This document shows, piece by piece, positions 18,829-62,819 of a DNA stretch of 64,000 bases (position 1 is the stretch's first letter; each line of letters opens with the position of its first letter). The stretch comes from Pseudophaeomoniella oleicola. Lineage: Eukaryota > Ascomycota > Eurotiomycetes > Phaeomoniellales > Phaeomoniellaceae. The notes under the pieces are model-generated. The model was not told where the DNA came from. It worked only from the letters and a program-made list of their open reading frames with translations, and searched no databases. The position numbers and the translations under genes are program-made. The stretch is taken from contig QWDQ01000056.1 of NCBI GenBank assembly GCA_003868215.1, positions 110,496 to 174,495 of the forward strand. The letters are read 5' to 3'.

Positions 18829-21800
18829 CTATTCAGGCTCTTGAAGACGAACGTCTTCATCTTGCTGCAACCGATCGATATCCATGGCAATGTTCATAAC
18901 CCAATGATCTCTTTCCGCTCTGCTTCTGCACTTGAACACCATACTTCTGCCAGGTACACCAAGGCGAGACACTTGCCGTAATCGATGGCGTTTTCCACCA
19001 CCCTCGACATCTTCATCTGTTCGAAACAGAGACTTTTTGAGACCATGCCACAAGACAAAGCAAGTCATTGTGTCTTGATCTCTTGAGGTCCAGGCATCTT
19101 GTGGATATACTCGCGGCAGTGCTGGCAGACCTGGACGGTTGCTGTCGAAGGTTTGGTTGTGATATAGAAGATCGTCCTCGGTAATCAAACCGCTGTACAC
19201 ATAGCAATCTTTGAGGTCTAGAGTGGTCTGGCGCTCTTGATGGATGTGAGGCACTTCGGCACCACTACGTTTGCGAAGCGAGCCTTGGAAAATGAGAAGC
19301 TTGCCATCCAGAAGGATGACACCACAGCGAATGAATGTCCCGTGTCGTCGAGGCTTCCGATAAAGCAATCCCGACATCGTGATTGTGCGACAAGAACCTA
19401 CGCCACACATATGATAAAGATGTGGCGATGCTTCCGATTTTGAGACTTCCCATTTTCGTGCAAACTGCCCAATAACGGCTTCCATCTCTTCATCAATCTT
19501 GAGCTGTGCAAGATTAGCTTGTCTAGTATTCCTATACAAGTCCATATCGGCCGCAGTTCGACGCTTCCAGTACTTCACCAATTGGCGAAGGCGTTTGGTC
19601 CATTCATGCTTGGTCTGCTCATTGAATGCTTGAAGTCGAATAACCAGGCCGTTGTCGAGAACGACCTCGAAGATCCTGTTGTCATCAATTTCCGTGGTCG
19701 TACCATCATCTTGTTCGGTGTCCGTGACATCTTGATGGAAATCTACATCTGAACCCTCGTCCAAATCTTCATCTACAGGAGTTGCCCCCCATTTGACATT
19801 CCGAACCTTGGCGATGCGGCGCATATCAATGTAACCGTCACAGCTTGTCAGGTTGTCCATGTTCCTCTGTAGCTCTTGATATGCTTCTTCGTCGTGCCGT
19901 GCGATATAAGCCTTATTGCCTGATTTGGTCCACTTGATTTCACCATCTTCCACAAGGTAAGGTTCTATATCATACATCAAAGGCGTCTTCTCCACGATCT
20001 CGGACGAAGAAGGAACAGCAGATCCACTAATGGTCGAAAGCCGAGGTGGATGGGGTGGCGACGTCCTTGAGGGACGGCAAAAGACGAGGAAATGATTTTG
20101 CGTAGTGAAGTACAACCTCTTGAAGAACATCCTGCCGAGTCGCTGATGCAGCCCCCTCTGCGAAGTCAATCTTATCAAAAATCCTTCGATTGGAGAGGGC
20201 TCGACATGGACTTTCCCCTTTCTACCCGTTGCAGTTGTAGGGTAATGCTGCTTCGGCCTGAGTTCTAACTCATGAGACCTTTGCATTGCCATAGAGCCGT
20301 ACATTTTCTGCTCATTGCCACCATGAATCCATTCGAGCCTGTCATATCGTTTCCATGCCAATCCCATTTTCTCATTCTTGAGCCATGTATCCAATACGCT
20401 GGCCCATTCAGGATCGCCTTCAAGCATATCTAGACAGCTTCGAATAATACGACCCGCTACTGCTTTTTCCTCTTCCATTGCTTTCTTCCAAACAGCCTCT
20501 TGATCACCAGGCTCGACCGCAGTATCCCGGGTCGCTTCCAGCTCCTTGAATGGATTGATGAGGCGTAGAGAAACACTTAAATCGGGGACGTTTACCACTA
20601 AGGTTGAGGGACGTGCCCAACCTAACGCGTCTCGGAGGAACGTATACCATTCCACGGCATGTGTGGTGGCTCTCGGCCGCATTATGAAGAACCTCACACC
20701 CTTCCTGTAAGGATGCCACACAACCACAGTCTTGTCTAGTGACGAGAAAAGATTGACACGCGTGCTCTTTGGCGTCAGGTATACCTCATGTTTGCATTTC
20801 TTCTTGACGGTTCCGTTGTCGACGGCAGGGATCACGCGGCTTTTGTAGAACTGGAGTCGAAAGTCCGAATCATCTTTGCGATTCTGTCTCACGACGACCA
20901 TATATTCCCTCCATTTTTCAGCAAGTTGTGTCTCAAGCTTCTGGCCGTCATTTTCATCAAACTCCGGTGGCACCTCCTGCATAGTGGTATCAATGCGGAC
21001 AAGCATCTTCTCCATCTTCACAATTGTACCCTCACGAAGAGTATCACGGCGTGACTGCAATCCAGCTGCACGCTGTTGAGCATGCGAGATTCTGTCCTTG
21101 ACTCTGTCACCACGGTGAGCAAAATTTTCGGCAAACCTGACGCCTCTGCCATCACGGTCTTCTATTCTCATTGCCGAATGCTGGTCTTCCATAGGCGCTG
21201 GCTCGTGCTGGTGAAGCGACCTATGTGATTTCTTGGATGGCTTTGATCGCGCATCCATGTCATCATGTGGTATCAGAGACGTCGTTGAGCTTGTATGTGA
21301 CACTTTGCGTCCATTCGCTGGACTCAGTTCTCGTGAGCTCCCAGCTGCTATGGATGTACTGGTCCGTTGAGGCGCTATGCTCGCTTCCACTGCGGAATTG
21401 CCTGCTTCGTCTGGATCTATCGCAGTCTCGTGCGCGGTAACAAATGTTTCTTGTCCGGGAGAGCTAGACTGGGTTGCACGTGTCGTCAGCAGCCCATGAC
21501 CAGAGCCACCACTCTTTATGCCATGTTCAGAGGATATTGGCAGGGACTTGCTTTGGCCAGGGTTTTCTGAATCCTCGATCCCGACGATTTGCGGCACATT
21601 GAGCTCTGTCGTGTTTACGGGATCTAGCTCTTCAGGCGCAGCATCGGGCCCCTCGTCATCTTCTCTCTGTTCAAGGCCTTGTTCATCATCTAGGTCGTTG
21701 GGCTGTTGGAAAGAACTTCGTCCATACATCGCAGTCAGAGAAGGACCGTCGAGTCCAGTGAGTTGTCTCTGATGCGCTGTGGACTGACTCGCTGAAAAGG

Positions 21801-22085
21801 AAGCTGTCCTTGATGAGTAATTCGACAATTCTAACCGACGCTTATACCAGGATTTCCGATGACTATTGAGCCAGCCTTCCGGGATGGGCCCAATGAAAAA
21901 TCGCCGTGTGGTCATGTGAAGATGCTCGGGCGACGCATGTTTCTGATGGATGATCAGTATTATTTGGTCCAAGAACAAAGGACGATACCTACCAGCCTCT
22001 GCGCGGTGTGCGACGCTGGATCGAGTGCCTCAGCAACATCATCTGATGCTGTTGATCCTACCCTATGGACCTGGCCCTCCGCCAT
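18829..22085 (-). CDS. Spo71/Mug56-like protein with PH domains, 1068 aa, two exons
   Basis: Fungal PH-domain protein related to yeast Spo71, which helps shape the prospore membrane in meiosis; its role in moulds is little known. Exon 1 is 21993-22085 (31 codons from the ATG at 22085; an in-frame TGA lies nine codons upstream) and exon 2 is 18829-21942, joined by a 50-nt GT-AG intron in phase 0. The N-terminal block RRFFIGPIPEGW is the family hallmark. A long low-complexity, Ser/Thr/Glu-rich stretch follows (about residues 90-300). After it come DRLEWIHGGNEQKMYGSMAM with LELRPKQHYPT, then a first PH-like region (GFLIRLTSQRG to KRLYFTTQNHFLVF, ending at TKHEWTKRLRQLVKYW) and a C-terminal PH domain starting GLLYRKPRRHGTFIRCG. 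The gene is divergent from the GLTP gene, with 514 bp between them. Confidence 0.85.
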
Positions 22086-22599: not shown

Positions 22600-23335
22600 A
22601 TGTCGACCGTCTCCATCCCCCCAGGTGGCACCTTTGTTGACACCCTCAAGAAATCCTTCACAGATGTACCCGTGAACCCGGCAGACGATAGCATTGAGAC
22701 AAGTGCTTTCCTGGATGCTGCAGACTCTTTGACAACACTCTTTGGTCTGTGCATACACTCTCACCACTCTACATGTTGTTAACATTGTCTAGACCTTCTC
22801 GGTTCTGCTGCATTCAAGCCTGTCAAAAGCGATATCCAGGGCAACATAAAGGTTCGAGGGTTCCAAGTCCACAAGCTCAGATCTGAACACCAACACTAAT
22901 CGCCCATCGCAGAAACTCAGAGAAAGGCAGCTAGCTGCTCCTGCAGAGTCAGAGACCCTTCAATCTCTCGTCGTCAATGAGATCAAGACGAAGAAACATA
23001 CTGCCGCCGAGGGCTTGGTCTGGCTCGTCAGGGGTCTGGACTTCACATGTCAGGCTATCAAGCAAAACATGGCCAATCCTACAGAAGAGCTGTCAGCATC
23101 GTTCAGAGCTGCATACAAAGGCACTTTGGCCCCTCACCATTCATTCATGATCAAGCCAATCTTCAGCGCTGCCATGAGCGCAACTCCATACCGCAAAGAC
23201 TTCTACCTGAAGCTTGTTAGCAACCCGAATGATGTCCCTAAAGTAGAGGAGGAATTGAAGCCTTGGTTGGCAGCTTTGGAGAAACAAGTGAACATTTTGA
23301 AGACGTTCCAACAGAGCAAGGAGGCGAAATGGTGA
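22600..23335 (+). CDS. het-c2: Glycolipid transfer protein, HET-C2 type, 208 aa, three exons
   Basis: Small cytosolic all-helical protein that binds and moves glycosphingolipids between membranes. Exons are 22600-22744, 22793-22851 and 22913-23335; both introns (48 and 61 nt) are GT-AG and the frame closes at 209 codons. Compared with human GLTP, the sugar-headgroup residues are present with the right spacing: Asp62, Asn66 and Lys69 in SDIQGNIKKL, Trp105 in GLVWLVRGLDF, and a His in PHHSFM (143 or 144). The length is the usual one for the family. In Podospora the same protein is the product of the vegetative-incompatibility locus het-c, so it is a candidate allorecognition gene here (inference from family, not shown). 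It shares its promoter region with the Spo71-like gene and converges on the pepsin-like gene. Confidence 0.93.
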
Positions 23336-23557: not shown

Positions 23558-25120
23558 TTAGTAAGATCTGAATCCGACCCTCTCCTGTCCGGCATCGAAA
23601 ACTACCCCGATCCCTTGGAAGAAAGGCTCTCCCATGATCCACGTGTTCTGCAGGCCGCTATCTCTCACCCCTACTGCTTCCTGCTTCCCTTTCTTGAAAG
23701 TGTACCCCTCTTCATCGATTGGTCGCCCCAGTCTCGATTCTACAACTGCCCCCACGCAGAAGCCGCTACCGCCTCTCACCTTACCCAAGCTGAATCTTCC
23801 ACCATGGTGACCTGCTAGGATTTCTTCTGATGTCACTGGCCCACTCATCAAGGGGAACATCCAGCTGTCAAATTCAGCCGCTATGTTGGGAGCGTTAAGA
23901 CAAGGGAATACGTAAAATCTCTCATGAGGCTCCGATAATCTCTTCGCTCCACTGATGCCTTCGTAGAAAGTCCTAACAGCTAATGGTGGGGCCAGTATGA
24001 ATGGCACCTGCACATCGAACAGTACAGGCTGAGTTTTCAGCACCTTAGCGCCATTGACCCAAACCCCAGACATCAACGCCGTCCACCATCCCTCTGCGCC
24101 TTGCACGGGAGACCACCGGAAAGCGTTCTCCCACGAAGCTGCCGAGACTGCACTTCCAAGTCGGCCAGGGAATGAGGACATGAGCCTTCGAACTTTACTA
24201 TCAGCGGTGGCAGCGTCAAGAGATGGGTCGTCTGCATATTTCAATTCGACCTGCGTGCGAATTTTCGCTTCTTCGAAGATCTCAGCACTGGTCCCGCCAA
24301 GTGACAGGATACCCTTCTCACGGTTCAGCAACGTGAGTGACCATATTGTATCCCCGATCAGCTTCCGATCTTGAAGCTGATTAATCAAGGAAGGCCTGGC
24401 TAAGCGAGCCATTGTCGACGGCGGTCCAAGTCCTAGAATGCTGCCATGAGGGCGATGTGTCTGGCGAGAAAATCTGGGAGGACTGCACGTCGGAATGTCC
24501 AGCGGAGATGATATTACGTCGCTGTCGAGGGACCATACGACTACGTCCATCATCATCCTACAAACTGGATGGACATACGTTCTTCCGTACTCCACTGAGA
24601 AGTCAGAGGCTTTCTCTTATACATTGTTTTAACAGGACTCCTCGGGGCGTACCATGGGTGGATGAAAAGAACGACTTGAAGATCGAGCCCTGTTGGCTCG
24701 TTGTCGACAAAAAGTAGAAGTCCGGAGTGAGCATATCCACATCCAGTTGTATATATTGCACTGGCTCGCCAATTTTCAGCCATGTATACCTGGACCAATC
24801 GATGAGAATCTTGCCAAAAGATGAGATTATGGTACTGACCAACTACCGTTCCTACCCATCTCAGCTTGCAAGTCGCTACCATCAACAACTATCTCGAACG
24901 TTGACTTCCAACGCCTTCTGACTCCATTGTCTTCAAGAATGCGCGTAGCATGGCCGTATCGGCTCTCTGCATCATCCGCAAGCTGCGAAAAACGGTCTAG
25001 GTTGATCACAGACCTGTTCCCTAAGCTACCACCACGGCGCTCGATCGGCAGATGGATCACCGGTTGGCCAGCGCTACAGAGCACAAGGTAGAGAAGAAAT
25101 ATGAAAAGAGAGAACGGCAT
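23558..25120 (-). CDS. Secreted pepsin-fold (A1) protein with non-canonical active-site motifs, 484 aa
   Basis: Aspartic-protease-fold protein entering the secretory pathway. Exons on the minus strand are 24840-25120, 24653-24789 and 23558-24594; introns are 50 and 58 nt and the frame closes at 485 codons. The start at 25120 opens a clear signal peptide (MPFSLFIFLLYLVLCSAG). The N-lobe begins NGSWYTWLKIGEPVQ and aligns without gaps to pepsin through the active site, placing Asp112 on the first catalytic Asp. The triad reads D-M-L instead of D-T-G. The C-lobe triad at Asp333 reads D-V-Q. The fold is otherwise well kept: SILGLGPP, a WTALMSGVWVNG strand, YVFPCLN, and the C-terminal WIMGEPFFQGIGVVFD. 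Both aspartates survive while the flap-supporting glycines are lost, so activity is doubtful. No frame break is seen, so it is not a decayed pseudogene. Confidence 0.85.
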
Positions 25121-25195: not shown

Positions 25196-25219
25196 GAAAT
25201 GAAAGAGAGAGAGAAAGAA

Positions 25220-25253
<34 letters not shown>
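25196..25253. repeat. GA-rich microsatellite (CT-rich on the minus strand)
   Basis: Nearly pure GAGA/GAAA repeats of about 55 bp in the 259-bp gap between the SulP gene stop and the pepsin-like gene start, both on the minus strand. Read with the gene it is a CT tract 75-130 bp before the ATG, so it may act as part of the leader or promoter of the pepsin-like gene. Confidence 0.85.
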
Positions 25254-25379
25254 CTTGCTTAGGACGTTGACAGAGACGCTGGTAAATGACTTTTTGATGA
25301 TTCTTCCACAATGCGAGGTCAGTTTGCATCAATTCACAGACAGCCAACCGGCCATGTATGCGTAGGGCAACTTCTACTT

Positions 25380-27930
25380 CTATCCATCTGATCTCTGTCG
25401 AAACTCGATATCCAGATCTTCTAATTCACAAAGCCTCAATGCCTGATCTACACCATGCACGAATCGGGACTCCCCACCAACGGTTTCCACGATACCACTC
25501 CTGACAAATGACGCATAGACCTGGCTGCGATTGTTGGGCAGACGACAAAATATGACCCGAACGCCTCTCTTCACATATTCTTCCACAATTTCTGCCAACA
25601 CCTGAGTTCCTGATCCGTCTATACTTGTGACGCCATGTACGTCGAATATGATATTCCTGTTATGCTCCGGGCGCCGGACCCTCGGTAAGGCGGGATGCGC
25701 TGCATTTGTACCATAGAACTCAAGTCTGCGCAACCGACTCTTGAGCTGTGCGGTGTTGGCGAACGTTAACGGCTCTGGGATCTTGCAGATGAGGCAACCT
25801 TCAACGAATTCAAGAGACTCTGGGTGAAGCTCAGCGTTCTCAAATTTGTCGGTGGTGCCAGGAACCTTACCCAAGATCTGTATGCGGGCCCTCGTGGCAT
25901 GTTTGATCAACATGAGGATAGACAACCCAATGCCAAGTGCAATGCCGAGAGTTAGCGAATAGAATATTGTTGCGAGGAAGATGACAGCCATCAAGGAGAG
26001 CTCAGTCCAGCCTCGGATCTTGATGAAGAATTTAATGTCATGCGGGCATTCTTCAACCAGACTGTATGCCACGACGGAGATCATGGCCGATAGGACACCT
26101 TTTGGGAGCCACTTGAAATATGGTACGACCAAGAAAACGCAGAGGACAGTGATGACGCTGAGTAAGACACTGCTCATGGGAGTCGTGCCGCCGGTAGATG
26201 CGTTGACTTTGCTGCGGCCATAGCCACCGAAAGCGGGGAGGGCCATGAAGCAACCACCGACGATATTTGCAACCCCTAGCGCAACAAGCTCTCGGTTGGC
26301 ACTGAGGGAAACACCCTGTAGTCCATGCGTCCCCTCCCCTAGGCTTTTCGCAGCGACAGAAGATTCAAAGAACCCCAAAAGAGCTATGACAAAGGAAGTG
26401 CCAAGAGCAGTGTCTATATGCTTCATTTGCGGTGTCTGCAGCGGCCAGTGAAATGGGAATGGGCTGCCAGTCCCAGACTTGACGCTTCCGAGTATCTCAA
26501 CGCCCTTTTTATCCCATTCAAACTTCCAGGCGAATACTGCCGAGAGTACAACGACCAGGAAGCGGTCTGGAAAATACGCCACTGAAGGATACCGAGGCTG
26601 TAACCGTCTTTTCACCTCCCTAAGAGCCTTTATTAGCACAAATAATAGGTCTGCCATGAATGGATGCTCACCTGAGGACCATGATGATAGCAAAGCTCGA
26701 AAGTGATACAGCTACTGTCAACCCATGGGATCTGCCGATATTTTTGACCAGAAATACCAGCTTTTGCACACTGCTGCCATGCTCCACGCCAGCGGCATGC
26801 TTCTGGACTTGAGCCAATCCTAGCTCTGGGATCAATTGATCCACTAGAATGACAAACCCAATAGCACTTATAAAACCTCTCAGAAAAGGCCTGCTAAGTA
26901 CACTGTCAAGAAAGCCCAGGCGTGTTAAGCCTGCTATCAATATGATGGCCCCTGCCATACCAGTGACAACACCTGCAATCTGACCATTCAACTGGTCATC
27001 TTCATCATGAGAATTCCCCTTGTCGACACTAGATCTGACAACGGAGCCGACCAGTAGGGAACCAGCCGCTTCTGGCCCCACAACCATTTGAGGGCATGTG
27101 CCAAGTAATGCGTAGATGATCGGGTTAAAGACGAATGAATAGAGACCATTGATCGGAGGAATGTGTCCAAGATTGGAAGCGTAAGAGAGAGACATTGGGA
27201 TATAGAATGATGCCATTGTCAAAGCGGCCACCAAGTCACCCTTGAACCAAGCCCAGCGATACTGGCGCATCCAGTTGAGAGCCGGGAAGTAGTACGAAAT
27301 GTACATCACTCTGGAGTGCTTGATCCCATGTCTTTGGGCCAGCCACTTGGTAGTGCTCATCTTGGGACCTCGACCTCCACCGAGTACACCGTCGGCGATG
27401 GTATCCCCGAGCACGCCATGGACAGCGTCAGGGGCTTCGCCATCTTCATCAAGAGCACCAGCATATCTGCCTCCGAAGCCATCTCTTGATTCTATACTAC
27501 TGGACGTACTCGTATATGATAGCGCGCGGGGAGAGAAGGTGCCATGATCGCAGTTTTTCGATCCACACCCTCGTCCCTTGTTATACTCCTCTAGTAGACG
27601 TGTGCGAGCATCTGCTTCACGTCGTGAAGGCGATACAATATGAGCGCCAGCCACATTGTCTCCCTCGTCTAACAGGGGAGTCTGTTCTTCTGGTATAGGA
27701 TGGCGGTCTGCACCTTCGAATCCTACGGGTGTTGAATGCGCCGGTGCATGCACTGCATTATCGTCGCCCGTCTCGTATTGTACTTCGCTTGTCAAGTCTT
27801 CGTTGGATAGAGGAGCAGCTACTGCCGTTCGTAAGCGGCTTGGAGTTAGGGGAGCATGCGCATTATGCGATTGTGGGTTGGGTGATGTCGGCCTGCTTGA
27901 AGAAGAAGAGCGAGTCCTCTGGCCTGACAT
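25380..27930 (-). CDS. SulP-family anion transporter with STAS domain, 832 aa, two exons
   Basis: Sulfate-permease-type (SLC26/SulP) membrane protein of the group including yeast YPR003C, probably on an internal membrane. Exons are 26672-27930 and 25380-26619, with a 52-nt intron. The start is the ATG at 27930; earlier in-frame codons are non-ATG. Residues 1 to about 200 are a long cytosolic, Ser/Pro-rich tail with an acidic dileucine EEQTPLLDE (about 81-89) and a Cys/His cluster GCGSKNCDHGTFSP (about 121-134). The membrane core starts near WMRQYRWAWFKGDLVAALT and includes MSLSYASNLGHIPPINGLYS, GPEAAGSLLVG, and NIVGGCFMALPAFGGYGRSKVN. The C-terminal STAS domain carries NIIFDVHGVTSIDGSGTQVL. 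The dileucine fits AP-3-type sorting to the vacuole (inference). It is divergent from eIF2-alpha, 801 bp away. Confidence 0.93.
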
Positions 27931-28731
27931 TCTGAATACAGCCAATGCTGCAGTGTCTGTAGATAATTGGCTACCGAAAATTGCGCTCAGATATCAACAA
28001 ACATGGCTGTCTATAGATCTTTTGGAAATCATGGCTCGTTCAGATTTCGTCAAGTGACTATAGGGACAGTGATTGGCAGGATAAAGGATTAGAAGGTTGG
28101 TGTACGATATGTACATACACTTTCCTCACATGCACGACCAGATTTTGCGATATATAAGATGTGTCTCCGCAACATTACATCTACCTAATGTAGGTGAGGT
28201 AATCAACAAAAGCAAGCAATCCTGTGGACAGCACATACTACAACGCCTCGACTGATGGTGGTATCATATGATGCATTGTGCCTCTAGCTCGCTAGGTAGG
28301 TAGTTTCTCTATTTGGACAGCCTCGGCGATGGTTCCAGGCATCTAATGAGAGATAATTACAGTGTGGTCGTAGGGTTAAAGAGGGTCATTCTCCAGAGGA
28401 AAGCTTCTAAGCGGGGAAAGACTTCCATACCCGCGAGGGCACGCCGTGAATCTGTCTCTTTGCACTAATTAATACGTATTCGGCTTACCTTCCCTCTCCT
28501 TTCTCCGACCGCCGCATTTTTCGATATCAAAACCAGTCATCCGTGGGGCAAGCACCAAAGCATCGCGAGAAGACCACGACACGAAGCGCATACCTACCTA
28601 CTAAGGCTTGATTGGATGTGCCTGGGTATTTTCGAGAAAGGGACCAATTACTTCTTCACGGACGAGAGAAGCAACTACTTCTGAAAGCTTGATAGTTTGC
28701 CATTGCCTCCGTGAGGCAACCCTCGCCCAAC
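27931..28731. promoter_or_regulatory. Shared upstream region of the SulP and eIF2-alpha genes
   Basis: About 0.8 kb between divergent starts. It holds a small inverted repeat (ACCTA-ATG-TAGGT, near 28182-28194), part of a GGTA/ACCT-rich patch, and a pyrimidine-rich stretch near 28490-28505 that could mark the eIF2-alpha transcription start. No open frame of interest is present. Confidence 0.45.
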
Positions 28732-45212: not shown

Positions 45213-47160
45213 ATGGATACCCTTCCCCTTGACGTTTTTCATTTGCTCGCGAACTGCCTTGAATGCGAGGATTATATCAATCTCAGCCAAACTGATCGGT
45301 ACTGCCAAAGTGTCCTCTGGGACGAGCACCTTGCCCGGCAGTGTCTAAAGGTAAGCAAAATGCTTCTGTCTTGTAACAGATACAGCGCTGACTCCTTAGA
45401 CTCACTTGTTTCACTCGGTTGAAACCAAGCTTGCCGACCGAGGGGCCTATTCATATCGTCAAGCGATTATGAAGGCTTATGGGAGGAGGCAGTCAGTGGC
45501 TACAGCGCATCCGTTCGCAATGGGGATCATCTCTCTTGCGGAGTCATTCATCTACAGTCAAGGCCGAGTTTGCTACCTGGCATTTGGGCGGATCCATATG
45601 CTTGATGTCAATATGTGGTCCGAGAAGGAAGTCCTTGTGGATCTGAAGTGCGTCCTTAGAGACTGTGGCCTGATCCAAAGTTCGATTAATGACATTACTG
45701 GCTGCGAGTTGTTGGCCTGTGCCAACGACAGCATCGCTATTCGCTGGGTAGACGGAACTGGCTCCCAAGCTTGGCTGATCGCTCTGCACATTGACCGACA
45801 GAAGGATAGGCTAGGGCTATCGTGGTGGAATCATTCTTTGCCCCGTGGAAAGTACCTAGTCAAGATTGGTGGAGGCTTCCTTTGTCTGGGATGCCGTATC
45901 ACGGGAGGAAGTCAACAGCATGAATGGGAGTTTAAGGTGTTCACTTTGCAAGGTGCAAACGGCAATCCGCAGTGGTCCACTCGCCTCAGCGGCTTACAGG
46001 GTACTGACATAGGCATGAATGTTGTCTTCGAGATATTCAACGGCTACTTGTACGCTGTCTCTAGTCAACCGTCCTCAGACGCAGACCCTATGGGATGGGT
46101 ATCATTCTACCATTGCATGCGCTTTGCGCTCGGCGAGGACCAACAGCGACCGGAACAATGCCAAATATGGAGACGCGACCATACGGAAGGAGTCGTAAAT
46201 GATTCCTGGCTTCAATTATCGTTGAGTCAAGACGAGAAGGATGGTCTTCTCTACATCACTGAGGTAAGGAAAGAGTGGCCTGGACACGACAGTTTCTGCA
46301 CCAGAATCCATTACAGACAACAGCTACACTCTGATGAATGGACCCCAGTTATATCTATCGAGGACTGGAACAATCATCCACGTCAGCAGCGAGCTAGCTC
46401 TGCTGATTGTGACCCCTCACTCCCAGAAGAGCCGCCTCAGAAACGCTCACGGCAAGTCATTCATCGAGAATACCAGTCACATGCTGCGAGTCGCACCGTC
46501 CCCGAATTTATCCTTGCACACACAGAAAGTCGATTTTACGACTCCTCATCAAAGACGTTTGTAGACGTTGTACGCAGAGATGGAGGGTTACAAACGCCTC
46601 GACAAGGAGGGAACACCGCTCACCTAGCTATTCGAAGCGTCCCTCGAAAACGTGCGGTCCAAGAAGTCTTTGTGGAGAATGATGTCGGTAATCGCTCATC
46701 AAGGAAGAGGAAGGTTCAAAAGGATGGCAAGGAAGAAGCCGAGACAGAATGCTACCTGTGGCCACCGCAGAGTATATCGCCAGAGGTCTTGGAACTCCTT
46801 GAAACAAGCACCAACTCCGCAAGTATGAACATGATGGCAGACAATCGAAACATTGTCTACATGGCAACCGGAAAGTCACTACGCGCACAACTGAACGAAG
46901 TCGGGGTGGCAAGCACCCTTTCTCCGCTCGTCATCATCTCGTTTGATCCAAGCTGCAGGATGCCGGGTCTACAACAGGTGACCTCTTCTCCATCGCAAGA
47001 GGCGCAACCTCAGCAATTGCCGAGAGGGGATGCGACAGGTCTCAGAGAAAAGCTGAAGGCATTGGCAAAGCAGTCCAAGAAATCGGAATGTCAGCCAGTG
47101 CGAATGTGGGAGAGGCCAGCAGCATATACCAGAATCAGGACTGGCTTTCGATTTCGGTGA
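45213..47160 (+). CDS. F-box-like protein of unknown function, 632 aa, two exons
   Basis: Probable substrate-recruiting subunit of an SCF ubiquitin ligase, judged only from its N-terminus. Exons are 45213-45350 and 45400-47160, joined by a 49-nt GT-AG intron in phase 0. Residues 1-50 fit an F-box: MDTLPLDVFHLLANCLECED, then YINLSQTDRYCQSVLWDEHLARQCLK. After it comes a long region with strand-like segments (AFGRIHMLDVNMW, ACANDSIAIRWVDG, KYLVKIGGGFLCLGC) that may form a beta-propeller, as in many F-box partners (inference). Residues about 360-480 are charged and low in complexity (EEPPQKRSRQ, NRSSRKRKVQKDGKEEAE), possibly nuclear-targeting. The C-terminus is also disordered. I do not recognise a specific orthologue. 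It converges on the BAR-SH3 gene, 259 bp away. Confidence 0.8.
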
Positions 47161-56007: not shown

Positions 56008-56693
56008 GATAGAAGTCCGGTCATTGAGTACAACTACCCAAAGACAATATAGAGGACGGATATGTATGAGTGAGTGACACTGGGAGGAATATACACATTA
56101 GCTCCAAGGGATTTTGGAAGGCCAATCTGTCCTCCCGTATTTGGCTGATTGGCTTCGGCGTCACATGTGCATAACGCTCGTCTGGAAACGGCGTTTATGT
56201 CAAGGTTTCCAAAAGGGCAATGTTGGTATCTTACATTGATGTTCTTCAGCGATCGAAATCAAGTGCTATTCGACATTTGTGTACTGTCTGAGCCATTTGC
56301 TTCTTCCCATGCTAGTCGTTTATATCACAGCATAAGCGGCTCTATACTGAAACGTTTCGACTTAGAAGCTGTCATCAAAGATTGTATAGGCTCAATAGAA
56401 GAGGTAATCATTTTCCTCATTCATGTTTCCTTGTTTATTTCTTCTATTGTCATGTCTATACTCGATGGCCGTACAGACGTAAGGGTGTTTGAGTAGTTCG
56501 GTTTTTAAATGCATTAAGCTCCAAAGCCTCCGAGATCCCGCAGCGCCACTCTTTGTTGATATCATCAAAGACCAAACATCCTCAGATCTTCTGTAAGGCG
56601 CATCTCAGAGCAATTGTTGATACTAAGGATCGAAACCATCCGCATTTCTATTGTTCAAATTACCTAGCATACATTGATGTATGCTCTTCGCGC
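56008..56693. other. Intergenic region between the GT62 and PPT1 genes
   Basis: 0.69 kb. A plus-strand frame (56149-56496) begins at a TTG and has one hydrophobic stretch near its end but no known domain; taken as chance. Confidence 0.45.
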
Positions 56694-57797
56694 ATGAGTA
56701 CACCTCTCAATATGGCCAATAGGCCTGTGGTTGTTGTCTGGGTCTTCGCCATCTTCCAAGTCATTTCTGCCTTCATCATTCCTCCTAATGATCTCGAATC
56801 ACAGCAGGTCCAACTCGAACATTCATCATTCGGCTCTCCCTCGAACGATGTCGAGCAACACGACGTCTCTACACCTTCGTCTGTCACCCCCCTCCCTCTT
56901 GTCATTTGGCATGGTCTAGGCGACAGTTTCGACGGGGCCGGACTTCAAGATGTTGCACTTTTCGTCAACGAGACTATCCCAGGCACCTATACACACATAA
57001 TTCGATTGGCATCAACTGGGTCATCAGACCGCAGTGCCACCTTCTTTGGCAATGTGACGGAGCAAATTGCGCTGGTATGCGACCAACTCGCTTCGCATCC
57101 CGTTCTTCGTGATGCCCCGGCCATCAATGCCCTCGGGTTCTCTCAAGGCGGCCAGTTCCTTCGTGCTTTCGTTCAGCGATGCAACAAACCTCCTGTTCGT
57201 AACCTTGTGACCTTCGGCTCTCAACACAACGGCATCTCTGAGTTCCAATCCTGTCGCAGCTCCACAGATTGGACATGCCACAGCGCCAATGCTCTACTCC
57301 GTTCAGGAACCTGGTCGAACTTCGTCCAAAGCCGGCTTGTGCCTGCGCAATACTTCCGCGATCCTTCCGACCCAGACCAACTATCCCAATACCTCTCACA
57401 CAGTAATTTCCTCGCCGACATCAACAACGAACGACCGCTCAAAAACGCAACCTACACTGCTAATATCAAGTCACTTCACAAGTTCGTCATGTACCTCTTC
57501 AGCCAAGACATAACCGTCATCCCAAAGGAAAGCGGCTGGTTCGCGGAGGTCAATCGAACGAGCGAAAAAATCACCCCGTTACGTGAGCGGACAATCTACA
57601 AAGAGGATTGGTTGGGTTTGAAGACGCTGGATCAAAAGGGAGGTCTAATCTTCGATACATTGGATGGTGAACATATGCGATTCAGTGATGATGAATTGGA
57701 AGAGGTATTCAAAAAGTACTTTGGGCCTGTGGACAAGAAAGATCTTGAATTGTGGAAGAATGGGAGACAATCATCACTGTTTCAGGACGAGTTATGA
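56694..57797 (+). CDS. PPT1: Palmitoyl-protein thioesterase 1, 367 aa, single exon
   Basis: Lysosomal/vacuolar alpha-beta hydrolase that removes palmitate from cysteines of proteins being degraded. The frame starts at ATG 56694; a second ATG at 56712 would give the shorter MANRP start with the same signal peptide (PVVVVWVFAIFQVISAF). The core starts PLPLVIWHGLGDSFDGAG, which supplies the oxyanion loop. The nucleophile Ser150 is in ALGFSQGGQFLRAFVQRC, the catalytic Asp is probably in SQDITVIPKESGWF, and the His (about 327) is in DTLDGEHMRFS. NLVTFGSQHNGI is also a family block. Potential N-glycosylation sites are present (NETI, NVTE, NATY, NRTS). At 367 residues it is somewhat longer than human PPT1, through an extended region after the signal peptide. 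Confidence 0.93.
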   Translation: MSTPLNMANRPVVVVWVFAIFQVISAFIIPPNDLESQQVQLEHSSFGSPSNDVEQHDVSTPSSVTPLPLVIWHGLGDSFDGAGLQDVALFVNETIPGTYTHIIRLASTGSSDRSATFFGNVTEQIALVCDQLASHPVLRDAPAINALGFSQGGQFLRAFVQRCNKPPVRNLVTFGSQHNGISEFQSCRSSTDWTCHSANALLRSGTWSNFVQSRLVPAQYFRDPSDPDQLSQYLSHSNFLADINNERPLKNATYTANIKSLHKFVMYLFSQDITVIPKESGWFAEVNRTSEKITPLRERTIYKEDWLGLKTLDQKGGLIFDTLDGEHMRFSDDELEEVFKKYFGPVDKKDLELWKNGRQSSLFQDEL

Positions 57798-59582: not shown

Positions 59583-61170
59583 TCATAATGCGCTGGGTAC
59601 CTCCCTTAACCTCACATTGACTTGAAAATCCTTCGGCATGACGAGCCAGAAATTTTGCGTCCGCCATGGCTTATGAGGGTTGACAAAGTCAAAATCAAAC
59701 ATCGAGATCAGGTTAGGTATCAATTTTGACATCTCCAGTATTGAGATATGTTTACCAATGCAGGTCCGAGAGCCTAGACCGAACTGAAAATGTCATTAGA
59801 TTATTAGACCGTTCATATAAGGAACGGAGCAGACATACCGGCATATAATGAGCATCCATGACCTTCAGTCTATCTTTGTCACCTTCAGCCTCCAACCATC
59901 GCTCTGGCCTGAAAACCCCAACATCTGGTCCAAATATCTTTTCGTCGTAGTGTGAACACCATGCGTTAACGCCTACCACTGTTCCAGAGGGGAAGTGGCG
60001 TCCACAAAGCTCAGCACCGTCTTGTGGGACAACTCTCCAAAGTGGTAAGCCTGACACAGCATGCATTCGTAATGCTTCCTTGATAACAGCATGTAAGTAT
60101 GGCATTGCTTGACTCTCCTTGAACGTGATATCGGGACGGCTAATGCCACCATCGGACCGGGATTGGTCGACTTCTTGTCTCAGCTTCTTGAAGATCTCGG
60201 GAGAATGAAGTAAGTAATATAAGATTGAAGACAGGCTTGCGCTTGTGGTGTCTGAGCCAGCAATGATGTTGGATTGTCCCATCATGAATATGTGATAATC
60301 AGTGACCTTTTCTGGACCTTTCTCCTTTGCTTTCATCATCCTCTCCAGAAAGTCTTGAGGCCTGTCAGGGTCTATATCGTCCAATCCCGACGTCCTCTTT
60401 TTCCTGCGCTGATTGATCAAAGATTGTGCAAACCTCATCACAGCCATTCGGCCTGCACCACCAGACCAGGGAAGGAGGCTTGTCAGAGGGAACAATGGTG
60501 CATGCCATTCTGGAAAGATTCCAATCAAAGAACCGTAGAGTTGAGTTCGATCCAGCGCTAGCATTATGTTTTCAATATCATCCCCACGATCCAAGAAGCC
60601 AAATCCCTTGCCGTAGGTGATGTTCCCAATCACATCGAAAGAGTAGAATCGGAACCATTGTGCCATATCAATTGGTTTCCCGGTATGTGCAAACCCTCTC
60701 AATCTTTTCACTAAGATCTCCGTACATTCATCAACGTATGGTTCGTAATGAATCAAGGAGCTCATAGAGTACATGGAAGCGAAGCGTTTGCGAGTATCAG
60801 CATGGCGTTTGATATCTCTGTCCGGAAACAATGACCACCTGTCTGGACTTGGATGCTTGAATCCTCCGTACCATTCGGACTTTGGGAATTCTGAACCAAT
60901 GCTATAGATAGTCTTGATAGCCGAAGCATCACTTATGCTGTAATGATTTGGTTGAAGCCGTACGACCGGCCCATACCTGCGGTGTAAGGCGATGTTATGC
61001 TGCTCAAAATCACCAGCATACACGCGATTACAGTACCAAAGTCTTGTGAATCGAGCTAAGAATGGACCTGGGACCGACCGAAGCGGAGACGAAAGAGAAC
61101 GATATACGAATACCAGGATTTTTATGGCAACGAGAACCACAAAGGATAAAATGAGAGTTGAGAAAACCAT
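59583..61170 (-). CDS. Cytochrome P450 monooxygenase (pisatin-demethylase-like), 510 aa, two exons
   Basis: ER-anchored haem monooxygenase. Exons on the minus strand are 59839-61170 and 59583-59783; the 55-nt intron is removed between HYMP and FGLG, just before the haem loop. The N-terminal anchor is VFSTLILSFVVLVAIKILVFVY, followed by the proline hinge SVPGPFLARFTRLW. Further motifs are the C-helix DIKRHADTRKRF, I-helix IIAGSDTTSAS, the K-helix ExxR in IKEALRM, FRPERWL, and the haem loop FGLGSRTCIGKHIS with the cysteine ligand. The overall layout (YGPVVRLQPNHYSISD, ITYGKGFGFLDRG) resembles fungal P450s annotated as pisatin demethylase or benzoate/xenobiotic oxidases; the substrate is unknown. 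It stands alone, with no biosynthetic core gene in the window, so detoxification is as likely as secondary metabolism. Confidence 0.93.
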
Positions 61171-62819
61171 CTTAAGACGCTGGTCATTTGCCTGTTATGG
61201 AATTTACAAGCAATGATCTGGTTACTGAAATCGTCTTTCTCAACTATCATTCTGTGACCTTCAGAAGTAGGCACCAGAGGGATAGGTCCTAATCAAGAGC
61301 GGACACATCTGGGGAGAATCTTGAGGACGGACATCGAGGGCGGACATCCGAGGTAGATTGCGGATGAAAGGCGCCAGCTGGGACCTTGTTGTACAGCAAT
61401 GCACGGCGGGAAGACTGCTAATGGGCGATGCAGGCAAAGCGAACGAGGACCGCGGTGTCAACGCAACAGCCGCGGTGGCTGCCAAGGTCAGCCTGAACTG
61501 TGCACTCAAACACCTCATCATTCCAGCACCCTTTCAGATTCAGCACTGTATGAGAATTCTGTCACTTCTCAGCCCGCAAGTCGCTAGAATCAAAGCATCC
61601 ATTGGCCCCATACGTCCTGATTCTCTTCGCGCGGAATCCAAAGCGCCCATGCTTACAGACTATCCAGGTCTCCCATTGTAGAACCTGCGCATGGAGACAC
61701 CCATCCAAGAGATCAATGGCAACTTACTGACTTAGCTGCCATTTGAGTTGATACATTTTCAACAGATGCGATCATCGAAACAGCAGTTCAATGCCAATAT
61801 CAGTTGAAGAATCTTATATGTTTGTCTGTTGCCACAGTATAGTATACCTGGACCCCAGCGAGAACATGTCCAGTGGGTTGAGAGTGGAAGAGCTCCAGAT
61901 GGTACGTGCCTATAGCAATTGGAAGTCCGAGAACACAGGGAAAGTAGGAAACTCGCATGCGGCTGAGCGATGACAGGTATCAAGTGTTGTACTCTCTCTC
62001 GACAACTTAAACAAGCTTCAACTTCTCGTCGAACTTGCGGCATATCGCAGAACTCCATCTGCACGAAGGATGGCTCTTATGTCGTACCCTAACTCGGTTC
62101 ATCTTTCCACAGGTCTGCTACGTTGCTAATGATGCCACGTCAGGAGCAACCCCGAATTAATGCTTAGCGCTGTCGACTCCAGCTTTGATGGCCTGATCGA
62201 AGAACTCTGTTGCTCTGGAACATGGAAAATCCCAACCGATCATTGAAAAGACATATAGCATGACTTTTATCATTTTGCAGTCACACATTCTCTTATGCAA
62301 CTAGATATCCTCTCTTAACAGGGGACCTTAGTGGTCCCAAATTGAAACAGGAGGTCGAAACAGGATCCCAAAGGGCTTGTTCGCTTGAGCTTTCCGTCTC
62401 CACCTAGTCTACCCCTGCTGCAGAGACTTGTCCTCACACCCTTTCATCTACAGCCTGTTTCTTGATGGTATTACTGTCACCCTACTCCATAGTTCATACA
62501 GAACTGTCCCTGCCATACGCTAGTTGTCGATCCCAATGCATGGTAGTTTTAATTCATGGATAAACAAACCACCGTTGTTTCTGAAACATCATATGATCCT
62601 TTCAATTTGCCGGCTGTACGGATAATTGTGTCAGTTTCATCATCACTATACGTTGAAAAGACTAAACTTGTCATGGTACAACACGCTTGGTCCTTCTTGG
62701 CTTTGAGTATATATGGATTCCTCTGGGCTGAGTATAGAGGACACAGATAGCCTATCTTCTCAGCATTTCTTCGCATTTCAATAAGACCGCATCAACTATA
62801 TTCCAGTCATATCACAATC
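61171..62819. other. Intergenic region of 1.65 kb upstream of the xylanase gene
   Basis: No supported gene. A plus-strand frame (ATG 61364 to 61681) and an antisense frame (61261-61521) overlap each other; neither has a domain. The xylanase promoter, with TATATAT at 62708-62714, lies at the right end. I looked for a xylanase-activator site (GGCTAA/GGCTAG type) and found only a near match (GGCTAT on the minus strand, about 62746-62751). Confidence 0.45.
62708..62714 (+). promoter_or_regulatory. TATA-like box of the xylanase gene
   Basis: TATATAT lies 112 bp upstream of the ATG at 62820, a usual spacing for fungal cellulase and xylanase promoters. The assignment rests on motif and distance. 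Confidence 0.45.

Follow-up and report, generated by a model that had tools for sequence, protein, structure and literature searches.

Relatives of pepsin that no longer cut their substrates are a known kind of protein. In sheep and goat pregnancy-associated glycoproteins (PAGs) and the cockroach allergen Bla g 2, A1 proteins considered inactive, each of the two DT/SG motifs carries substitutions. These proteins, like PxAP9 of Phytophthora, a probably inactive A1 paralogue, have been proposed to bind peptides without cleaving them (PMC3116508). By crystal structure, Bla g 2 adopts the pepsin fold (PMC9541408), and a xylanase inhibitor is also listed among the A1 non-peptidases (PMC2761423). 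Outside family A1, Ecm14 has been described as a conserved, secreted fungal pseudopeptidase belonging to a different family (PMC7706225).

In filamentous ascomycetes, a survey of Aspergillus niger reported 15 A1A proteins and doubted the activity of four of them (PMC7804941). According to its Table 2, An11g00310 carries the triads DWT and DHA, An11g09170 carries DLT, An15g07770 carries DRG, and no motifs are listed for An11g09240 and An11g10270; three of these five A1 homologues with non-canonical triads are starred as predicted to be secreted. As worded in the survey, the doubt covers the other four proteins and not expressly An11g00310. By contrast, both motifs were present in all of the reported aspartic proteases of Talaromyces marneffei (27/27), which speaks against the generality of such changes (PMC13414439). 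In Zymoseptoria tritici, codon-selection tests were significant in each of the six secreted A1 peptidases studied (PMC5784588).

Here, we describe a gene of Pseudophaeomoniella oleicola that encodes a putative secreted pepsin relative, in which the two triads read DML and DVQ. The gene lies in a window of 64,000 nucleotides, the whole stretch of DNA analysed, which falls in contig C65 of a genome of 26.1 Mb in 112 contigs; the genes it holds and their short introns would suit a filamentous ascomycete. Like An11g00310, its protein has an Asp in both triads, although the triad letters of the five A. niger proteins, as published in the table, differ from DML/DVQ (PMC7804941). It shares defective motifs with the PAGs and Bla g 2, which are animal proteins with, in those named, Phe at position 75; PxAP9 is membrane-anchored and BACE-like with a changed Tyr75, whereas the protein described here has no anchor and has changed triads (PMC3116508).

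Gene structure and coding signal

The gene model was rebuilt from the sequence and is given in Table 1, together with neighbouring genes and the five further A1-like loci whose triads are altered. Both the coordinates and the length of 484 amino acids (aa) reported in an earlier note on this DNA were reproduced, as was its unbroken frame: no internal stop was present across the 484 codons, and both introns had usable GT-AG sites. Local decay by a frameshift was ruled out, as the gene model contained no frame break.

Table 1. Positions of the gene and its parts, of neighbouring genes (all in window coordinates), and of the five other A1-like loci with altered triads (contig coordinates where available)
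Feature	Position	Strand	Description
Whole gene	25120-23558	minus	3 exons, 1455 nt joined, 484 aa; rebuilt gene model
Exon 1	25120-24840	minus	hydrophobic leader (~residues 1-18); presumed propeptide containing LPIERR
Intron 1	24839-24790	minus	50 nt, GTCAGT...CCAG
Exon 2	24789-24653	minus	IGEPVQ turn and first active-site loop
Intron 2	24652-24595	minus	58 nt, GTACGC...CTGACTTCTCAG; CTGAC near acceptor
Exon 3	24594-23558 (stop included)	minus	flap region, first psi-loop (ILGLG), C-lobe and second psi-loop (WIMGEPFF)
First triad, D112-M-L replacing D-T-G	24737-24729	minus	within exon
Second triad, D333-V-Q replacing D-T/S-G	24016-24008	minus	within exon
Sulfate permease with STAS domain	25383-27993	minus	upstream of the gene; Pfam
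GLTP gene	22850-23335		convergent, downstream of the gene; Pfam; 161-aa frame
SPO71-like PH-domain protein	18832-22029		downstream of the gene; Pfam
Altered locus C28			triads SSS/DTT; C-terminal transmembrane helix by eye; one open frame
Altered locus C102			triads NIL/DSS; C-terminal transmembrane helix by eye; one open frame
Altered locus C47			triads SIL/STE; C-terminal transmembrane helix by eye; in pieces
Altered locus C69:203k			triads EPC/EPS; C-terminal transmembrane helix by eye; in pieces
Altered locus C33	236460-237548		triads DLS/MNG or NGD; one open frame

For the acceptor of intron 1, three donors (GTCAAC, GTTCGA and GTCAGT) were all phase-compatible; we preferred GTCAGT, which we take to be the nearest of the three to the splice donor consensus. 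For intron 2, the alternative open pairs (acceptor index 556) lose the VEYGRTY stretch.

The earlier note had named alternative splicing that restores DTG as one observation that would overturn its reading. We enumerated the open GT-AG two-intron models with donors within the gene's first 200-700 bases and intron lengths from 45 to about 150 nt (n = 1080), and none of them had D[TS]G at the triads, so that such splicing was ruled out (0/1080). The sole D[TS]G match in these models was an irrelevant RDSGLQ near the C-terminus. LFDVQVP was present in 1080 of the 1080 models, DVDMLTPD in 255 and KIGEPVQ in 152, and the triads were altered in each open model that retained them.

Codon usage gave the gene little support. 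The coding frame exceeded a composition null (z = 3.4), yet its score (4.0) was surpassed by those of the three antisense frames (8.7, 8.0 and 4.4), and its score per codon (0.008) lay at the bottom of the range spanned by 13 reference frames (0.008-0.061).

Relationship to peptidase family A1

Profile and structure-database matches place the protein in peptidase family A1 as a distant member, and the pepsin-type homology proposed earlier was borne out. Pfam PF00026 matched with 31.5 bits (cut-off 19.9; E = 1.6e-7), over residues 437-481 only. Three PDB entries matched at E ≤ 1, namely 9uf9_A (7.3e-8), pepsin 1am5_A (0.019) and chymosin 4aa9_A (0.14); in the C-lobe alignment with 9uf9_A, Asp333 falls on the Asp of DTG. 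Against an A1 profile built from the nine normal homologues of the same genome, defined as having D[TS]G in both lobes, the protein scored 24.4 bits versus 5.2 for the best of 1000 shuffles.

The N-lobe was described in the earlier note as aligning to pepsin without gaps from the IG-x-P-x-Q turn through the active site. The stretch IGEPVQYIQLDVDMLTPDFYFLS does pair gaplessly with IGSPAQSFIMDFDTGSSDLWVPS; however, its own score is almost nil (0.2 bits in the PDB search and 1.0 bit with the own-genome profile), and the placement of Asp112 therefore rests on landmarks (the spacing from IG-x-P-x-Q) and on their order.

A protein search of the genome returned the gene itself and one other match, which was 28% identical over 92 residues; this ruled out a recent paralogue or a second allele. 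No relatives were found in viral contigs with the spliced protein as query, or in a prokaryote genome collection with exon 3 only. A structure model of exon 3 alone, predicted from the single sequence, had a mean pLDDT of 29, too low to be of use.

Triads and other conserved positions

Both triads are located inside exons, at the aspartates reported previously (Asp112 and Asp333). Relative to pepsin, T33/G34 are replaced by M/L and T216/G217 by V/Q, with both adjoining aspartates retained, and Thr218 (pepsin numbering) is replaced by Val. In pepsin, the fireman's grip consists of Thr33 and Thr216, while hydrogen bonds to the ligand come from Asp32/Gly34 and Asp215/Gly217 (PMC11313796). An active A1 peptidase requires D-T/S-G, and neither lobe of this protein has it. 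Both triad threonines and both glycines being replaced, normal catalysis is therefore unlikely, and loss of pepsin-type catalysis appears to be the best reading of these sequences.

To describe conservation outside the triads, we used an alignment of 15 A1-like rows and counted as near-invariant the columns common to at least seven of the nine normal homologues (n = 49). The 484-aa protein kept 22 of these 49 columns. The five other altered rows kept 15, 16, 21, 21 and 29, and the nine normal rows, which themselves help to define the columns, kept 38-48. Among the kept columns were Gly and Gln in the IG-x-P-x-Q turn, the two triad Asp, Gly-Leu in the first psi-loop and Gly in the second, FPC, and V-x-D near the end. 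Hydrophobic-hydrophobic-Gly psi-loop motifs were present in both lobes (ILG at 192-194 and WIMG at 458-461), and the core motifs that remained were IG-x-P-x-Q, ILGLG, WIMG-x-x-F, VVFDAGxxRVGF and the cysteine pair 371/419. Nevertheless, the claim that all landmarks other than the triads are kept was too strong, given 22 of 49 columns: the Trp39 column, which holds Trp in all nine normal homologues of the genome, is occupied by Tyr119; the flap glycines are lost; and the GD of the second psi-loop has become GE (Glu462). For the flap Tyr75, Tyr142-Gly143 fits by eye, whereas MAFFT places Arg152 in this column.

It could be argued that the protein is still an enzyme, with its two Asp at work in a rebuilt loop, either as an aspartic protease of an unusual type or as some other acid hydrolase. 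The retention of both Asp, unique among the six altered A1-like loci, and the possible flap Tyr142-Gly143 of the preferred splice model would fit this explanation. However, the triad glycines have become Leu and Gln, the triad threonines Met and Val, Thr218 Val and Trp39 Tyr; moreover, at a retention of 22 of 49 columns, two Asp would be kept by chance with a probability of about 0.2 (our own estimate from those numbers). Because this is not beyond chance, the two retained aspartates would be weak evidence of function, and we consider continued enzymatic activity very unlikely. More speculatively still, and with hardly any expectation on our part, the Asp pair in a loop devoid of Thr and Gly might mark a pepsin-fold acid hydrolase whose catalytic loop is new, or a secreted peptide receptor whose carboxylates contact the ligand.

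Protein layout and predicted secretion

The signal peptide was assigned by eye and by hydropathy. The leader reached a Kyte-Doolittle value of 1.99 in a 19-residue window at residue 4, and no C-terminal transmembrane helix was found among the 19-residue hydropathy windows from residue 26 on, the highest of which was 1.32 at residue 328. The C-terminal end of the protein is the A1-like motif VVFDAGQERVGFRSY. By this hydropathy profile, a hydrophobic leader with no later membrane helix, the 484-aa protein should be secreted and soluble, in agreement with the secretion proposed in the earlier note. Cysteines were located at residues 15, 151, 176, 371 and 419, among which Cys371 and Cys419 would fit the C-lobe disulfide of pepsin, their pairing being deduced from position.

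A1-like loci of the genome

When the whole genome was searched with PF00026, 19 matches at exon level were obtained, interpreted as 14 loci; the gene in the window makes 15. The window gene was absent from the list produced by this search, though the frame of its exon 3 scores above the Pfam cut-off. Because the search missed it, the number of A1-like loci is a lower bound, and further diverged A1 copies may be hidden in the genome. Nine loci were normal, with D[TS]G in each lobe (C13, C17, C20, C25, C26, C39, C67, C69:396k and C70), and the triads, taken from alignment columns, were altered in 6 of the 15 found.

Altered triads are not rare in this genome. Such changes are not unusual in themselves, given the five other loci listed in Table 1 and the published cases. 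Like the protein described here, these five are altered in both triads; however, none of them has both Asp, which makes the window protein the only one of the six to keep the pair, and the first four are of the membrane-helix type, whereas the window protein has no anchor. What is particular here is the combination of both Asp kept, no membrane anchor, and the longest A1 branch of the genome.

In the proteins from C28, C102, C47 and C69:203k, the transmembrane helix was followed by a tail that looked cytoplasmic by eye; these would be receptor-like pseudo-pepsins. The C33 protein lacked Asp at the triad column of the C-lobe and ended, by eye, in a hydrophobic stretch resembling a GPI signal.

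The four proteins with a transmembrane helix formed one clade (support 99/98). The best tree placed the window protein beside normal homologues, at a fork of 81/78 (drawn open) within an eight-row group (96/98), which suggests that its catalysis may have been lost separately from that clade. The tree program warned that the position of this long row is unsure and that its composition departs from that of the alignment; trees constraining the window protein into the transmembrane clade (AU p = 0.149), or C33 as well (AU p = 0.067), were not rejected.

The branch of the window protein was the longest of the 15 rows, with 3.51 changes per column versus a median end branch of 0.98. Such a branch, the losses beyond the triads and the weak codon bias would all be expected of a relaxed or decaying copy: a secreted A1 protease, once duplicated, would have lost its catalysis and now be drifting with its frame still open. 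On the other hand, 484 codons have remained without a stop or a frame break despite very deep divergence, both introns have usable GT-AG sites, and the psi-loop and C-terminal motifs are retained. A neutral gene should carry stops or shifts at 3.51 changes per column, and from the open frame we therefore infer constraint. We regard a decaying copy as unlikely, yet as the next most likely reading after that of a secreted binder.

Genomic neighbourhood

Pfam was used to scan 20 frames of the neighbourhood (19 of the 22 frames of at least 200 aa, and the 161-aa GLTP frame); the frames at 56493-57794 and 59755-61194 were left out, and the A1-like gene was scanned separately. Matches were obtained for 19 of the 20 frames, the frame at 45400-47157 having no Pfam match. 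Past the sulfate permease, on the opposite strand, were eIF2alpha and a YVC1-like channel (Pfam), and a P5A ATPase and a Glx-tRNA synthetase were also among the matched frames. A mobile neighbourhood was ruled out, as none of the 19 matched frames was of mobile-element type. An Rfam scan of the window gave no matches at the gathering threshold. A purine-rich GA/AAAG simple repeat was observed at window positions 25198-25257, some 80-140 bases ahead of the gene's start codon.

Nothing in the neighbouring genes suggests a function for this gene. This bears on the idea of an inhibitor or decoy that binds other secreted hydrolases, for which the xylanase inhibitor among the A1 non-peptidases offers a precedent (PMC2761423): neither the sequence nor the neighbourhood, whose Pfam-matched members are ordinary cell genes, hints at a target, and we hold such a role to be decidedly improbable, if somewhat less so than retained enzymatic activity.

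Discussion

A1 non-peptidase homologues are recognized by homology to the family together with defective catalytic motifs, and both were found here at the level of sequence. We lean, with somewhat better than even confidence, towards a secreted, soluble A1 non-peptidase homologue whose scaffold may be kept for binding peptides or proteins outside the cell. With the fireman's-grip threonines and the triad glycines gone, the carboxylates and the attacking water would not be positioned as in pepsin, and the cleft would consequently no longer cut; the bilobed body would then serve as an extracellular scaffold for holding a peptide or protein, much as proposed for PAGs, Bla g 2 and PxAP9. A binder that does not cut is the most likely reading, its binding role being drawn by analogy with these proteins. 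As a counterpoint, the retention of 22 of 49 columns would also fit relaxed constraint.

A role other than normal proteolysis, as suggested in the earlier note, appears likeliest, given the A1 homology, the leader, the kept Asp, the rewritten triads and the open frame. The protein adds one case to a known kind, and the gain is modest because the A. niger survey already doubts the activity of 4 of its 15 A1A proteins (PMC7804941). Judging from their triads, 6 of the 15 A1-like loci found here probably do not encode ordinary peptidases. Should the altered triads prove to be common to orthologues and under purifying selection, the gene would clearly exemplify how a secreted pepsin fold in a fungus was taken over for binding, and counts of fungal A1 genes would overstate the number of proteases.
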